A stretch of DNA of 64,000 bases. Source: Polytrichum commune (Eukaryota; Streptophyta; Polytrichopsida; Polytrichales; Polytrichaceae). Below, piece after piece: positions 12,384 to 64,000 of this stretch. The stretch spans positions 18,292,001-18,356,000 of the forward strand of contig OX485804.1 of the NCBI GenBank assembly GCA_950295325.1, in the 5' to 3' direction. Position 1 is the stretch's first letter. The number at the start of each line of letters is the position of its first letter. The notes beneath the pieces were generated by a model. The model worked only from the letters and a program-made list of their open reading frames with translations, searched no databases and was not told where the DNA came from. The translations under genes and the position numbers were made by a program.

Positions 12384-13104
12384 CTTCGCTGGCCTACTAG
12401 ACCAGATGCGAACAGAGCTTCGGCAAAAGATTTGATGTCACAGAGAATAAAAACAACACCACTGCCACGCCAAACTCTAGATGAGCAACTACCACATCCA
12501 AAAACTAGGAAATCGCCAATATCACTACCTCACAACCACTCATACTCCGGCTGAACAGATACAAATTACGTTCCAGAAGCTCCAATGAGAAAGACGAGGA
12601 ATTGTGACGATGAAGAACAAAACCCCCCGCTCTTCACTACTTGTAGCGGCTCTTCCCCCCGACCACCAAGCTAAGGCTCGACTCCTGCAACAATGCAGAC
12701 AAATTACAGTCGGCCTTCCGACAAGGAATGCCTGAAGATTCCTCTCTGGCTCTCTGCAACGTGGAAGCTCTCCCTCTAGCTCAAAATTCCTTCTTCGACT
12801 CCTCCGACTCAAAGGCATCTGATGAACAATGCTACCTCTTGGGTGTTCTATAAACGCTGATCAACAGCAAGGTTCCCTCCATAGCCAGCCAAACCCATGC
12901 AACTGCCATGCACCTGCGGGGCAAACACGGTTCGCCTACTGGGGTCCTCCACGGACCAGAAATCTAGAAAATTCTTTAATCAGATCCACCCAAAACGTAG
13001 ATCTCGGGAGGTGGTTCGTAGATCCAGCCCTTCAGCCCCTCCGTGTGGATTCCAGGAACACAGGAAGGCTAGGAAGCTGCGATGCTGCTGCTGGGGAGGG
13101 GGGG
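12384..13104 (-). other. Probable 5' leader of the calmodulin-like gene
   Basis: This is GC-richer than the flanks and lies between the TATA box and the ATG. About 700 bp is long for a plant leader, so a 5' UTR intron is likely, but no splice pair can be chosen with confidence. Open frames here on both strands are taken as incidental. A short SINE-head-like piece (ACCACCAAGCTAAGGC, 12662-12677) is present. Confidence 0.45.
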
Positions 13105-13112
13105 CTTTATAG
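13105..13112 (-). promoter_or_regulatory. TATA box of the calmodulin-like gene
   Basis: The minus strand reads TTCTATAAAGCCCCCCC, a good plant TATA box in a GC-rich setting, followed downstream by a CAGCAGCAGC stretch. It is the only strong candidate between the ATG and the repeats farther upstream. Confidence 0.5.
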
Positions 13113-14340
13113 AACGATGATAAAATTGAAGCCAAGTCACTTGTGCCAAAAAGAAAAAGAAAAAACAAAACCAAAAAAGATGTGGTCCATCTCCTTTGAT
13201 GACGAGACGAGCGGAGAGGAGAGGATCATTCTAGGTGAGAAAGAAAAGACGTGAGGTAAAGATGGTAAGAAGTAGTACTAACAAAGGAATGGTCTTCCTC
13301 GTGACGAATACGGCACCCCTCGCAATGGACTTGCTTGCTTACCCTTGACGAGCGTTGTTTAATTGCCATAGGATGGTTTTTCCCGGTGCGGAACAAGACT
13401 CACAAGTCTGGTGTCGACTTGGTCATGGATCGAGTGCCCAAGATGCAATCACAAAAGAAAAAAAGGTAGGTGGGTGGGTGGGTGGGTGGGTGGGTGTGTG
13501 TGTGTGTGGGCCTTGTATGTGGTCACTTTACTTAATCGAACGTCTATGTTGGAGTGGCGCTACATGGCAAGGCGCCTAGTTAAGATCGGAGACGCGTATA
13601 GCAATGGGATCGGGACACAAACTATCGATGCCGTTTTGGGTGCAATAGTGACTGTCAATGCGATTGGGATTGCTCGGTTTTTTGGATTGTCTTTGATCTT
13701 GAACCCTATTGTAAACTCGCCCTTCAGGATGGGGTTGTTATTGAGGTTTTGATTCAAAAAACTTGGGGTCCAAAGTACTTCTTCATGGACCTTACTTTTG
13801 GACTCAAGATTGGTTACATCAAACTAGGAGAAGAGCAGTCTTGAGTCGCAACCAACAAGGCAAGTTGACAAGAAAGTGATTGTTTTTTAATTCATAATCA
13901 TGTCTCCAGAACCCCAACGTAAAGTCCTTTTGTTCCAAAATTTTGCTATGAACCAACAAGATTGCTCAATTTTGGAGTTTATTTGGTCTCGAGCGCTAGT
14001 TAACCCTAAGTTAGGGACCTCTAAAAGGGTTGAGTGACCAAAAGATGGGATTTTTATTATTATTAAAATAAAAATAGATCCTTGGTGTATTCAGTCATAT
14101 TTGATGACATTTTGTAGAGGTGTCACTCGTTGTTAAAAGGATGACTAGGTTATGCGTAAGTTATTCAACTCTTAGTACCATACCCAATACTACATCAACC
14201 CACTTGATTGTCACATGCAATTTTCAATTTAGTGTCAATGATCATGATTGTATAAGTAATGTAAACATGACTTTAATAAGTACATGCCCCAATTCTCATG
14301 ACCGTATCCATATTCCTTTATATCCCTCATACTCCTCACT
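13113..14340. other. Interval without gene
   Basis: This holds a compound microsatellite at 13466-13510 and no convincing coding sequence. Confidence 0.5.
13466..13510. repeat. (GGGT)n(GT)n compound microsatellite
   Basis: Tandem GGTG/GGGT units pass directly into a GT run. Confidence 0.95.
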
Positions 14341-14575
14341 CCAGTGTCCGGGAAGATTTTTGGGCATAACTGGTCGAAAGCCCGGTGTTTCCAAGTCCAA
14401 CCGGTGACATGTTGTGATTCCTTGGTGTTTCTTGTTTAATAATTTGATTAACGTATGTTCCCGAAATTCCTCTGAAATTATCAGTTATCTTCCTGAAGTC
14501 CTGAACTTCAACCAGTTATTTCTCAACCTTAACCGGTTATCTGTAACTAGCAGTCAGTTCTCTCCCCTTCATTCC
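14341..14575 (-). repeat. Dispersed repeat family I, copy 3
   Basis: Reverse orientation relative to 7579-8020. It shares CAGTGTCC, TTTCCAAGTCCAACC, ACATGTTGTGAT and AACCGGTTATCTGTAACTAG with the copy at 52884-53105. This copy and the one at 53 kb are the two uninterrupted ones and define a roughly 235-bp unit. Confidence 0.7.
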
Positions 14576-14623
14576 CTCGCTCTCATTCGTTATGATATTT
14601 AATTTGTATTCATTTACGGTGTG

Positions 14624-14647
14624 TATTTATTTATTTATTTATTTATT
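14624..14647. repeat. (TTTA)n microsatellite
   Basis: Six tandem TTTA units. Confidence 0.9.
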
Positions 14648-14799
14648 GAAACTGAGTTTGTTATTATTCAGTACGCCATTGTCCTCTGTATCCAGGTAGA
14701 TTTTCCCATCTTAATGTAATTTATCCTTGCCCCTTTTCACCTAAGTCATCAAGAAGGTCCTCCTTCTCTTCTTTGATTTTATTGTTTTGGAACAAAGAA

Positions 14800-14890
14800 G
14801 GCACATAGTCGCTTGGCTAGTTTTACCATCAAGTAGAGAGAAGATTTCATAGCCATGAATCAAATCGCCAACCACTCTCATCCGGTCATC
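14800..14890 (-). mobile_element. SINE-like family L, diverged fragment
   Basis: It matches 4170-4265 in the same orientation: TAGTTTT, AAGTAGAGAGAAGATTT, GAATCAAATCGCCAACCACTC and TCATCCGG correspond to blocks in the first copy. The B box is degraded (GATTTGATTC). Confidence 0.5.
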
Positions 14891-14979
14891 TTGGACAAAA
14901 GGTTCTCTTCCTCAAGAATTATATGGATGATGCCGAGTTTTTCAATTTATGCATTTACTTCAATTCCTCCCCACCCCCT

Positions 14980-15001
14980 CCCCCCCCCCCCCAAAAAAAA
15001 A
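14980..15001. repeat. C13 followed by an A tract
   Basis: Thirteen C followed by nine A. Confidence 0.95.
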
Positions 15002-15205
15002 TAAAAATAGAAATAGCTAATAGAATGAGACAATCTCCAATCCGATTTAGCAATTGAAGTTTGTCCTTTGAGATGGAAATACCCTACAATAGGCCCACAT
15101 TCCTCCTATGAGTCAGGGTGGATGCCCGCCTCTTTGAGCTTGGACCCCCCACCACTATTATAAAAGGTAAAGGGAGTCTAGTAACAACTCGACCCCCGTA
15201 GGTTT

Positions 15206-15455
15206 GGAAAAAGGGAACTATCATATGCGAATGAATGTACCCCTCATTCATCCAAGATAAAGCTTGAAATAGTATGCAACCCATAGGCTACTTCATTTAG
15301 TTGATTTTTGACACCGGAATCAACTATAAAGACCCCAAATGAGTCTACTCGAGGTCATTTGAGATGAACTGACAACAAACCTATAGGGGGTTGAGGTTTT
15401 AATGTTGGACGGATGGATGAGAGGTATGCTCGTATACAGTAATTCCCCCTTTGCC
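15206..15455. mobile_element. MITE family D, copy 1
   Basis: Inverted termini are related as GGAAAAAGGGAACTATCATA at 15206 and the complement of GTATACAGTAATTCCCCCTT (ends 15455). They continue inward through GAATGTACC and CTCATTCATCCAA. Relatives lie at 24302-24545 and at about 42684-43405. The length is 250 bp, non-coding. Confidence 0.7.
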
Positions 15456-15539
15456 GTGGATTTGTGAGTAATGTACACGCTATAATAAATAACCGCGTTT
15501 CCACCTTGTGAAATAAAGTATGCGGGTGTCATTTGGTTC

Positions 15540-15880
15540 CTCTTCTTAATCGGACCCCTGTATTCGATCGGTACGTGGTTCGGTGAGGATCAAAAAGCAA
15601 ACACCAATAAGACACATATTTTAAGGAGATTGGACTATGTCTTCGAATATCGTGAGCTATTCTACACTCAATAGTGACCACAACTAGGGAAGACCTATGT
15701 ACTTAATCAAGATATCAACAAACGTGCACTCTCCATAACCACAACTAAATCAAGGGAGTTTCGATTTCCAATCCGATTTTTGCAAATTCTTCATCGATAC
15801 CAATTTTGCTAATGCAAATCTAATTAATAGAAGTTGGAAAACATGACAAATGAACCGAGTAACACCCACATACCTTCGTT
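15540..15880 (+). repeat. Dispersed repeat family K, copy 1
   Basis: This aligns over about 340 bp with 57850-58195. Shared blocks include TTGGACTATGTCTTC, ACTCAATAGT, CACCTATGTA-like sequence, TTTTCAATCC-like sequence, TTTGCTAATGCAA, AGAAGTTGGA and AATGAACCGA with CACCCACATAC. No coding frame is conserved. The class is unknown, and it may be an LTR retrotransposon fragment. Confidence 0.6.
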
Positions 15881-16469
15881 CAGTGGTAGGGGCCCCACTC
15901 AAAGAGGGTGCGTGTCTAGCCCTGGCCACTTGTACTTATGTGTGGCAAGGGTTGAACACATGACCCAAAAATGACCACTTCAGCTGCATGCAACAACTTG
16001 GGAGTCCAGGCAACCATCTAGGCAATGAAACCATGTAGCTAAATCCATGCAACATCCATGACGCAATCTCCAAAACGCAATAAAAACGCAACCTACGTTT
16101 TTTACATCCCAAGTTGTTGCATGTCAACACACTACACGTGTGTTTTTTACCCCGAACATGAATCACTTGTTTTCACATCAAATTTTCACCTGTTGTGTTC
16201 AAATGCTTCACTTGTTACTGTTGTGGCCTGCATCCTCCAAGTGTCGCCCGGGCTGTGGACGCCCAGGACCATGGGCCCGGTCCTTGGCCTCCAATTTATC
16301 TCCAGTGTTGGGGAAACCGTCCCAAAGCAGTACACAATAAGGACAGTCCTTTACTCATGACCCACTTGATGAGCATCGCTTTTGGCTCTCAGGCCTGGAC
16401 TTCGAGGAAGGAGCGTGAATTGATGAGCAGAAAAATGTAAGGTAGCTTGGGTTCATGCCAGGCTCCACT
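15881..16469. other. Unassigned GC-richer interval
   Basis: Slightly GC-rich at 16200-16440, with overlapping open frames in several frames and no recognisable domain. It sits directly before a MITE and is probably transposon or non-coding DNA. Confidence 0.4.
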
Positions 16470-60129: not shown

Positions 60130-60450
60130 GAATTTGAATTGAAGAGATCTCAATTGAGTGATTTGAATGTCCTTTGAACTCTCTTGAGGTGTAGAAAATC
60201 TTCTTTGAATGATTTATAAATGTAAAACATTTAAGGTAAAGAAAATCTTATTTGAGTGATTTGAGGTCTTTCAAATTCTTTTGAGGTGTAAAAAATTATA
60301 TTTGAATGTTTTGAGAGTGTAAGACATTTGAGATGAAGAAGATCTTATTAAGTGATGTGTATGTCTTTCGAAGTCTCTTGAGGTGTAGAAGATCTAACTT
60401 GAGATATTTGAAAGTGTAAGACATTTAAGATGAGATATATATTGTTTGAA
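60130..60450 (+). repeat. 97-bp tandem repeat, about three units
   Basis: CTCTTGAGGTGTAGAAAATC-type phrases recur at about 60181, 60278 and 60375, each followed by a TGTAAGACATTTAAGATGA-type phrase. The array ends just before the copia gag start, so it may belong to that element's LTR or leader. Confidence 0.8.
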
Positions 60451-60477: not shown

Positions 60478-60990
60478 ATGGCATTATTTGAAAACGAGGC
60501 CGCTAGAATCATTGACAAATTCAATAGATTGAAGTTAAATATTTGAAAGTTCAAAATTGAAATATTGTTGGCATCTATGGATCTTTGGGATACTGTGGAT
60601 AAATCCGAAGAACCTCCACCTTCCAATGCGGATCCCAAAGTGTTGAAGAAGTACTAAAGACGCATCAAGGAGGCCATGTCTATCATTAGCCTCAATTTGG
60701 CGGACAATCAACTTGCGTACATCAAGAGTTGCAAAGGACCCGCGGAGGTGTGAAAAACCCTTTGCAACATTCATAAGACGAAGAGTTTGTCTAACATTTT
60801 CTTCATTTGCCGCAAATTTTTCACATGTAAGATACAAGAGGGCGATGACTTGTTGCACCACATCAACAAGGTTAAGGCGGTCACGGATTAACTCACTTAT
60901 TTGAAGGTATCCGTGAAAGACGAAGACATTGTCATGACCTTGCTCGAGAGCTTGCCGACGTCGTTTGAATACTTGATCACCACCAGGGTT
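60478..60990 (+). pseudogene. Ty1/copia gag remnant (UBN2-type)
   Basis: A single continuous frame from ATG at 60478 shows copia gag landmarks: a RRIKEAMSII-type helix, a LADNQLAYI segment, and DEDIVMTLLESLPTSFEYLI near the end, the typical LL-x-SLP motif. Four in-frame stops interrupt it: TGA 60544-60546, TAA 60655-60657, TGA 60751-60753 and TAA 60889-60891. Homology fades after about 60990, just before a strong hairpin, so zinc knuckle, protease, integrase and reverse transcriptase are all missing. Gag would form the particle shell of the retrotransposon; this copy cannot make it. Confidence 0.85.
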
Positions 60991-61018
60991 GTCTATTGTG
61001 TCGTGACGGAGGGTAATC

Positions 61019-61054
61019 CCGGCATAATGTCGTGCCGTCACGACATTATGCCGG
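61019..61054. repeat. Perfect 16-bp inverted repeat with 4-base loop
   Basis: CCGGCATAATGTCGTG (61019-61034) and its exact complement (61039-61054) flank CCGT. It lies at the point where gag similarity ends. Confidence 0.95.
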
Positions 61055-61195
61055 ATGCTGTCTTTATCCTGACGGACTTGAATTTTACCGATTTTTTTGT
61101 GTAATTACATTAACCCAATTCGGACACGTAGGATTTACAATGTCCACGTGTGATGACATGTCAGCAAAGTAAAGGTAAAGTGGGGAAAAATTTAC

Positions 61196-61748
61196 TAGAG
61201 CCCGTCCGCCCCCGTTCCCAACCCCCGTTCGCCCACGTTCCCCCCCCGTCTGCTCCCGCTCCCCGCCCCGTCCCCAACCCGTCCGCTCCCCCCCCTTTCC
61301 CGTCCGCTCCCCACCCTCCCCCGTCCGCCCCCCCTGTCCGATCCCCACCCTCCCCCGTCCGCCCCCCCGTCCGCTCCCCACCATCTCCCGTCCGCCCCCC
61401 CCGTCCGTCCGCTCCCCCCCGTCCGTCCGCTCCCCCCCCGTCCGTCTGCTCCCCCGTCTGCTCCCCCCCTCCCCCGTCCGCTCCCCACCATCTCCCGTCC
61501 GCCCCCTCCGTCCGCTCCCCCCCGTCCGTCCGCTCCCTTGTCCGCTCCCCCCCCCGTCCGTCCGCTCCCTTGTCCGCTCCCCCCCCGTCCGTCCGCTCCC
61601 TTGTCCGCTCCCCCCCCGTCCGTCCGCTCCCCCCCCGTCCGTCCGCTCCCCCCCCGTCCGTCTGCTCCCCCGTCTGCTCCCCCCCTCCCCCGTCCGCCCC
61701 CCCGTCCGCTCCCCCCCCTCCGTCCGCTCCCCGTCCGCTCCCCCGTCC
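61196..61748 (+). repeat. C-rich minisatellite built on CCGTCCGCTCCCC
   Basis: About 550 bp consist almost wholly of C with spaced GTCCG/GTCTG/GCTCC words. I counted about 35 GTCCG by hand. Larger units are duplicated: a block with GTCCGCTCCCTTGTCCGCTC occurs three times between 61525 and 61615, and a CCGTCTGCTCCCCCGTCTGC block occurs near 61438 and 61656. Open frames on both strands through it are a by-product. The minus strand has many runs of 4 or more G and could form G-quadruplexes. Confidence 0.95.
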
Positions 61749-61759
61749 GATTCGAATAC

Positions 61760-61766
61760 TATAAAT
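61760..61766 (+). promoter_or_regulatory. TATA box of the hAT transposase
   Basis: TATAAAT immediately follows the C-rich array and lies 231 bp before the transposase ATG. It is the only good TATA there. Confidence 0.6.
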
Positions 61767-61996
61767 TGAGGGTTCAAGGTGCCATTTTTGCCTCCACTGA
61801 CATAGTGTGTCTCAAGTCTTTTGATTCTCCTTTGAGGAGTGAGGATTGAATGCGTGAGACCCGAATGCAGAGGATACTTTGTCCAATCTAGTGACTGTGA
61901 ATTAGGGTTGCCCTTGTGGCACTCTTGAACAGGACCTAGTATGCGATCAAAGTTACTTGCTCTAACTTGTTTGTATTTGCAAGTTTTGTTGAAGTC

Positions 61997-64000
61997 ATGC
62001 CACGCCGAAATGATGCATGGGATCATTGGTACGAGGATAAGGGGATGGTTCCCGGTAAATCACAAAGGCAGGTTAAATGTAGGTTTTGCCCGTTCGTCAT
62101 ATCTTACCGAGGAAATAGACCTCCTGTAGGGGGTGCTTGTGATGTTTCCACATGTAGGATGGTTCCCCCGCATATTAGGGTCTTGTTTGAACATTGCGGA
62201 GGCATTGTGCCCTTACATGTAGGCATTGTAAATGAGGACTCTCCGGTGCCAGATATTGTACCTCTGGAGCCTATTATAGCGGACTCTGTAATTAGTGAAA
62301 CAGAGCCTTTGCTTATGTCCCAATCCACTCAACATTATGATGTTGTGATATATGGCACACCTCCTCGTGAACTACGTCAACTCAACATAACGGAGGGGTT
62401 CAATGTGTCAACAAAACAACTCCTTGATAAAGCATGGGCAACGGCTTTTTATGAAGCTAACATTCCTTTCAACATTGTGAGACATCCTGCATTTGTTCAT
62501 GCTGTGCGTGAAACTGCCCGTTATCGAATGCCAGCCTACACACCACCATCGTACAATGCCATCCGTACGAAGTTGTTAACTGATAAAAATGTTGACCTAG
62601 ATAGGCAAGTGAAGGAGAAGCTGGGGAATTCCGTTGACAAATATGGCGTTACACTATGTTGCGATGGATGGGACAACGTGCAAAACCGACCTCTCCTAAA
62701 CGTTCTTCAATGTGGCACAAAGGGAGACGTTTTCTTGGATACCATTGACACCACGGGAAATCACAAGGATCATGTCTACGTTGCTGCTCAAATTCAACCA
62801 TTTGTGGAAAAGGTTGGTCGACATAATGTGGTCCAAGTTTGCACCGACAATGCCCCAGTTATGGCCTCCGCTGCTCGCGACTTGATTTGAGCAAATCCCG
62901 ATCTATATTTTCAAGGATGTGCTGCACATTGCCTAGATCTCCTCTTAGAAGATTGGGGGAAGGAGGAATGGGTGAAAAAGTTGGTAAAAAAAGCGCGCCA
63001 TATTTGTGTATTTGTTAAAAACCATCATGCTTCTCAAGCTATATTCCAGAGGTTGTCACCAAATCTCTCATTCCACCTACCTATAGAGACCCGTTTTGCA
63101 ACGAACTTCATCATGATAGAACGTCTTCTCCAAGTACGCAATGCTTTGGAAAGAATGGTGGTTGATGAGGATTGGCCTACTCTAATGCGTGATATGAGGA
63201 GGAGATCTCGCACCTCTTACATGAAGGGCTCTGCTGTGCGAAGCTTTATACGTTTTGATGGATTCTGGAACACGTGCGAAATTTTTTTGTATATGGTGAT
63301 CCCGGTTGTTAAAGCTCTTTGTGTATTTGATGGCAAGGCGCCTGCAATGAGAATGGTTTGGAGGGTCATGCATGATTTACAAACCCATATTCGTGGATTC
63401 AGTAAACCTCCATTTCGCTTAAGCCCTGAGCTTGCTGCAAATGCTATGCTAACGTTTCAAAATAGATGGAGGTTGATGTTGAATGATCTACATTGGACTG
63501 GAGCGATGTTAAATCCGCTTCTACGTGGTTGGGCCCCACTCCATGAGGATGACAATTCGAGGACAATCCTAAATCGAGTTCTTCGCAGGCTTGCTCAAGA
63601 TGAGGACACTTATGTCCAAATCCTCCACCAGTACCAAGATTTCCTTGAAAATCGAGGGCCTTTTGCTGATTCTACTGACCCGAGCGTGCATGCCGCACCT
63701 CTCCATGAATGGTGGGATGCAATGGGAGGTGGAGCTAAAGCCCTCCAAACAATAGCAAGACGTATCCTTGCACAAGTATGTTCCGCATCCGCATGTGAAC
63801 GCAATTGGAGCATGTACTCATATGTTCACAACAAGAGTCGCAATCGCTTGAAGCATAGTCGTGCTGAGGACCTCGTCTACATATATACCAATAGTAGGCT
63901 CATTCGACATCGGAGGGGCCCAAGATCTGCGCAATGGTACGAATTGAATGAGGTCCATTCTGACGATGACCTTGAGGAAGAAGATGACAACGAAGATGAC
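61997..64000 (+). pseudogene. hAT transposase (BED finger, DUF659, hAT dimerisation), one in-frame TGA
   Basis: Start MPRRNDAWDHWYE at 61997 is typical of plant BED-type hAT transposases. Order: BED-like zinc finger with C28-x2-C31; a linker; the DUF659/RNase H-like core with the first catalytic Asp in CDGWDN (residue 223) and the second in VCTDNA (284); an insertion domain; then the C-terminal dimerisation block with the catalytic Glu in ACERNWS (601) and RLKHSRAEDLVYI; and an acidic tail at the window edge. A single TGA at 62888-62890 (codon 298) interrupts it. The frame is otherwise open to 64000, 668 codons in all, close to full size. The protein would cut and paste its element in the nucleus. 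As it stands only the first 297 residues would be made, so the copy is disabled unless read through or spliced. Confidence 0.93.

Follow-up and report, generated by a model that had tools for sequence, protein, structure and literature searches.

A C-rich minisatellite of variable length at a fixed position in a family of large hAT elements of Polytrichum commune

The window analysed here is the whole stretch of 64,000 nucleotides on contig C2 (18292001-18356000) of Polytrichum commune, and the searched genome comprises 408 Mb in 64 contigs. The right-hand end of the window holds the first part of a long hAT element, which was read beyond the window to its 3' end. Positions are window coordinates; where a position p is given with the prefix W (counted from coordinate 60000), the window coordinate is p + 59999. 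A tandem repeat of 97 bp in three copies (60140-60433) lies upstream of the hAT insertion. We identified the following features.

60976-60983, + strand: 8-bp target-site duplication ATCACCAC, with its direct repeat at 78708-78715, beyond the window
60984-64000, + strand: the part in the window of a 17,724-bp hAT element that ends at coordinate 78707 (contig C2:18370707)
60984-60996, + strand: 13-bp terminal inverted repeat CAGGGTTGTCTAT, with its partner at 78695-78707, beyond the window
60984-61195, + strand: 5' terminal region of 212 bp, common to the sampled copies, holding GTCGTGACGG / CCGTCACGAC motifs
61000-61075, + strand: cluster of GTCGTGACGG-like words, candidate transposase-binding sites, from word counts compared with shuffles
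61200-61749, + strand: C-rich GTCCGC minisatellite (array 1), from base composition, word counts and repeat finding
61760-61767, + strand: TATA box TATAAATT of the transposase gene, by consensus only
61997-64000, + strand: gene for a hAT transposase that has DUF659, a hAT dimerisation domain and, by eye, a BED-like finger, the frame continuing beyond 64000
68616-69133, beyond the window: array 2, a C-rich tract next to a TATA word and reading frames, all on the minus strand
Near 69289-69317, beyond the window: short C-rich remnant
72867-73224, beyond the window: array 3, a C-rich tract preceding TATATAAA and a 651-aa frame
76304-76934, beyond the window: array 4, a C-rich tract, subterminal at the 3' end

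The preliminary description of this DNA had placed the element terminus at 61196, where the base composition changes. In BLAST comparisons, homology of seven other copies to the window begins no more than 4 bp from 60984. Among 40 copies of 60984-61195 scored from 596 candidates, 39 start at the first base and one at the second. Together with CAGGGTTGTCTAT, these starts put the terminus at 60984, 212 bp further out, and exclude 61196. The sequence TAGAGCCCGTCC, proposed as the element tip, is likewise not borne out, as the tip is CAGGGTTGTCTAT. Ends lying elsewhere in other copies had been named in advance as an outcome that would count against the description, and the terminus is indeed found at 60984 instead of 61196. 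The 5' terminal region contains a palindrome (61019-61054). The 3' end of the element is ATAGACAACCCTG at coordinate 78707. The length of 17,724 bp includes about 1.5 kb near the 3' end without a counterpart in short copies; this segment, which recurs elsewhere in copy A, is taken as a nested insert.

The terminal inverted repeats of hAT elements start with CAGGG or CAG, and the 13-bp CAGGGTTGTCTAT at both ends is of this type. Target-site duplications of 8 bp, as expected for a hAT element, are present: the window copy is flanked on both sides by ATCACCAC and copy A by GCCTTAGG, each matching at 8/8 positions. Among 25 short copies, 22 score 8/8, and the others score 7/8 (L032), 6/8 (L031) and 3/8 (L033), the last because its first base was misplaced; once placed, it also scores 8/8. 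The duplications of L086 and L087 are 8/8 as well. The transposase gene, correctly predicted to lie downstream of the array, matches PF04937 (DUF659, E 6.1e-21) and possesses the dimerisation domain characteristic of hAT transposases (PF05699, Dimer_Tnp_hAT; E 9.4e-11, 41.8 bits, cut-off 21.4). An in-frame stop at 62888-62890 interrupts the window copy of this gene, which also has a short in-frame loss within the BED-like finger. In other copies, no stop was found in six of seven across the 433-434 codons read.

The DNA switches sharply to C-rich sequence at about 61196-61200, just where the preliminary description had seen an abrupt change. C makes up 363 of the 559 bases over 61196-61754, and on the + strand each 100 bp between 61201 and 61700 contains 64-69% C (about two thirds C overall). 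The earlier figure of roughly 35 GTCCG words agrees with our count of 35 overlapping words in array 1. Without overlap there are 28; 500 same-composition shuffles averaged 0.84 and never exceeded 4. Tandem Repeats Finder did not return a clean GTCCGC tandem array at 61200-61749; array 1 appears there as a degenerate minisatellite with periods of 19, 21, 31, 34 and 50 and 65-79% matches. From its final GTCCG, which ends at 61749, 10 bp lead to the TATA box, whose first base is 61760; this upholds the claim that the array stands just before the TATA box of the transposase, directly upstream. The claim that it is an integral part of the hAT element is borne out by the copies described below. The observed/expected ratio of CpG is 1.32-1.61 in the arrays of the element versus 0.75 in the interior stretch tested. 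A potential for G-quadruplex structure had also been suggested. The array contains six such motifs against a mean of 9.0 in composition shuffles, which is no rise above the expectation from base composition and rules out an excess of G-quadruplexes as a special feature of the array.

We found the array to be a property of the element family. All 40 copies picked by their 5' flank alone enter a C-rich tract at the same point; this sample consists of 25 short copies with both ends, nine copies with the transposase promoter after the array, five with other interiors and one nested pair. A second sample was drawn from the array itself. The word CCCCGTCCGCTCCCC occurs 524 times exactly (0 times for the reversed control), and the first 100 matches listed are all on contig C1. 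Leaving out previously known clusters, 22 clusters remained, of which 20 were fetched, the two left out being 7-9 kb from a known piece. All 20 fetched clusters (from the first 100 of the 524 matches listed) are flanked by parts of the hAT element; for three of them, situated about 3-8 kb from earlier matches, the sampling was not fully blind. Because both the 40 flank-picked copies and the 20 fetched clusters combine array and element, the array belongs to the family. A general genomic satellite is rejected for this sample, and an array unlinked to hAT elements, the other outcome that had been said to speak against the description, was not seen in it. Three hAT copies in C1 21.88-21.97 Mb have near-equal array spacing, perhaps as a result of segmental duplication.

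The position of the tract is fixed and its length is highly variable. Of 60 distinct copies, 55 had a recognisable next landmark, and in these we measured 48-953 bp. L006 and L076 do not differ in their 5' flanks; the tract measures 593 bp in the former and 389 bp in the latter. One exact pattern identified 340 heads (GGAAAAAWTTACTAG) genome-wide, with two matches for the reversed control. Two head-to-tail (CACACMCTCCTTAG) pairs in the genome are joined by at most 30 bp and ten by 31-61 bp, as counted by exact patterns that miss diverged copies. A GTCCGC unit is present in all 12 pairs from both gap patterns. The shortest pair has a single GTCCGC unit, with 13 bp between the landmarks, and the next has two units. 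Because both of these copies have perfect 8/8 duplications, transposition can probably do without a long array. Mobile copies would not require many GTCCGC words in their ends, and movement would be possible with one or two units if the array was already that short at insertion. Later shrinkage could have occurred and would weaken this argument.

Short copies with both ends, no transposase promoter and an array in between, the form of a MITE with an internal minisatellite, account for 25 of the 40 flank-picked copies (508-1366 bp), and the shortest tracts among them have only one to three GTCCG words. In two short copies, L036 and L071, the array unit is complex, with T and A runs alternating with GTCCGCCCC blocks. 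A tree of 60 5' flanks shows three well-supported groups of 25 rows (20 short), 5 rows (4 short) and 29 rows (6 short), with one short row outside; its bootstrap is not fully settled and its root is for drawing only. Short and longer copies occur together in each group, which fits a change in either direction: short forms may have arisen several times, or may several times have captured genes. The idea that short copies are simple deletions between array 1 and array 4 is weakened, as 12-mers specific to array 4 are almost absent (0 to 6 per quarter) from seven short copies, six from the group of the window copy and L075 from the 25-row group, with uneven references of 20 copies for array 1 and three for array 4. 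Since these 12-mers are almost absent, the ancestors of many short copies may have been short founder elements that had arrays of their own.

We then investigated the interior of the long element, which contains four C-rich arrays, two subterminal and two internal. They make up 13% of the element when the nested insert is excluded. The preliminary description had proposed looking for a GTCCGC-rich subterminal region at the 3' end, and a second subterminal array does exist there, in direct orientation and not inverted. A 651-aa open frame (L010 5287-7239; coordinates 73287-75239, beyond the window) constitutes a kinase-like gene. It has a weak match to the protein kinase family (E 2e-06, 27.8 bits, below the Pfam cut-off of 31.7) and no match in the PDB. 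The first gene of L054+L088 corresponds to this kinase-like stretch, the two being 89% alike along 2370 bp. A second gene is found in copy A on the minus strand (L011 2597-4955), with frames of 576 and 286 aa. Neither frame matched Pfam or NCBIfam, and the best PDB hit of the 576-aa frame has an E of 0.65; a RING-like cysteine pattern is visible by eye only. A tandem repeat of about 85 bp inside the element (coordinates ~70466-71013; L010 2466-3013) varies between copies.

TATA words lie 6, 1 and 56 bp from the edges assigned to arrays 1, 2 and 3, respectively, and three of the eight array edges have such a word within 90 bp. With a chance of 0.089 per edge for a TATA word within 90 bp, three or more such edges among the eight would arise by chance with a probability of about 0.03 (hand calculation). 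These words raise the possibility that the arrays are kept as CpG-rich, nucleosome-poor upstream promoter DNA for the genes of the element. Three genes begin near an array, whichever array strand is C-rich, and in L054 the kinase-like cassette, now beside the 5' end, again has an array before its TATA box; the high CpG ratios point the same way. However, short copies hold tracts of up to 953 bp between their ends without any gene, array 4 faces no gene in the orientation of the window copy, L057 retains the transposase TATA box with a tract of only 74 bp, and five of the eight array edges have no TATA word within 90 bp. We regard retention for this purpose as unlikely, and a promoter role of the array as possible.

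The preliminary description had favoured a different function, an expanded array of transposase-binding sites. In maize Ac, according to PMC3260210, multiple AAACGG hexamers in the terminal 200 bp are bound by the Ac transposase. A motif of this kind, short and repeated in either orientation no more than about 100 bp from each end, was found in our element as GTCGTGACGG. This word or its reverse complement occurs exactly twice in the 5' 212 bp (mean 0.0 in 200 shuffles) and twice in the 3' 191 bp. Near-copies with at most two mismatches number four in the 5' stretch (shuffle mean 0.2, maximum 2) and six in the 3' stretch (shuffle mean 0.5, maximum 4). No GTCCGC was found in either of these terminal stretches. 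Judged by such word counts, GTCGTGACGG is a better candidate transposase site than the GTCCGC array. If the BED finger instead bound GTCCGC repeatedly, an expanded array might raise transposition or autoregulate the gene. Long copies do have a GTCCGC-rich tract inside each end, none of the 40 sampled copies is without at least a short tract, and every one of the 12 head-to-tail pairs contains a GTCCGC unit. We nevertheless consider this explanation quite improbable: perfect 8-bp duplications surround the one-unit and two-unit copies, both subterminal arrays are direct and not inverted, arrays also stand at internal genes, and it is GTCGTGACGG, not GTCCGC, that is enriched in both orientations inside both ends.

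Several rearranged copies have array joints. L054+L088 shows the order 5' flank, array, TATATAAA, kinase-like gene, further DNA, second C-rich tract, TATA and transposase. Copy A carries the kinase-bearing segment in inverted orientation, with the G-rich face of array 3 directly against array 4; the left joint of this inversion lies outside the arrays. The kinase-bearing segment W 12666-16170 (coordinates 72665-76169) is inverted relative to L002+L011+L025, and L016 and L017 have the same left inversion joint as copy A. L070 has gene 2, at W 7554, fused to array 2. Array 1 exits into other DNA in L034, L046, L048, L063 and L079. In L079 with L089, the 5' end and array 1 are followed by DNA dissimilar to the long element, with several long open frames. 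Other breaks have no array: the rearrangement from W 2256 to 6339 in L077, the joints near W 2469 and 2919 in L057, the joint just past the transposase TATA box in L078, the end of homology at W 7787 in copy B, and the internal loss from W 15627 to 15893 in L054+L088. These comparisons suggest that arrays hold more of the rearrangement joints than their 13% share of the element would predict. Purely neutral expansion, in which a slippage-prone GTCCGCCCC seed sits in a tolerated spot and plays no role in joints or expression, would agree with lengths from 13 bp to about 950 bp without visible effect on movement, with a G-run structure explained by base composition and with the own array types of short copies, but the recurrence of similar arrays, four times within one element and again where cassettes are newly joined, makes it very improbable.

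The description that we consider reasonably probable is that the array is a hypervariable C-rich minisatellite at the cassette joints and promoter fronts of one large modular hAT family. It would probably serve as an elastic joint and promoter-side spacer rather than as a grip site for the transposase. The tract would lengthen and shorten from a GTCCGCCCC seed with a constant place, a little more than 212 bp in from the 5' end, and slippage or unequal repair during excision and gap refilling would be the probable cause. In long elements, four tracts would mark the joints of gene cassettes, near the TATA boxes of the transposase, the kinase-like gene and an opposite-strand third gene. Because the tracts resemble one another, they could provide joints of low specificity for the loss, inversion, permutation or replacement of cassettes, and would set a C-rich, CpG-rich spacer before whichever gene lands there. 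Recombination driven by the arrays, like any effect of the arrays on transcription, is something that we infer. For hAT copies that are short or carry filler, the usual explanation is gap repair that breaks off at arbitrary points. We tentatively propose, as a conjecture that is less likely than not, that the arrays are the shuffling joints of a giant modular hAT, where post-excision repair switches template and so assembles array-bounded cassettes, each with its own C-rich, CpG-rich promoter front. A family-specific hypervariable tract at the border where interiors change makes it testable whether tandem arrays steer the loss, capture and reordering of transposon genes. The analysis also separates two things that are easily confused when a sequence is read: the subterminal array, which catches the eye, and a less striking inverted motif, which is the more probable requirement of the transposase.

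No hAT element with such a C-rich array was found among the papers listed by searches of an open-licence library, and the family shares parts of its organization with several known systems. Maize Ac has CAGGG-type ends, as does the present element. Further likenesses to Ac/Ds, as described in PMC3260210, are the 8-bp duplications, the repetition of short motifs in terminal regions of about 200 bp, and the short copies that have the terminal 200 bp in common and carry variable interiors or filler. Ac differs in being 4.6 kb long with AAACGG hexamers in its ends, whereas here GTCGTGACGG is the candidate motif, the two long copies that were read from end to end measure about 17 kb and carry further genes, and a C-rich minisatellite stands at the border of the terminal region and the interior. 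Copies of Galileo, a Drosophila element, also vary by expansion of direct tandem repeats and by recruitment of internal sequence, as described in PMC4168063. However, Galileo belongs to another superfamily (P), and its repeats of about 140 bp lie inside long terminal inverted repeats, in contrast to the C-rich short-period minisatellite at gene fronts described here. A tandem array is also carried inside satellite-seeding MITEs and similar non-autonomous DNA elements, as outlined in a review (PMC9659126). Unlike in those elements, the array type of the Polytrichum family is also found in gene-carrying copies, near promoters and at cassette joints, and the array always accompanies the element in the 20 sampled places, taken from the first 100 of 524 matches listed.
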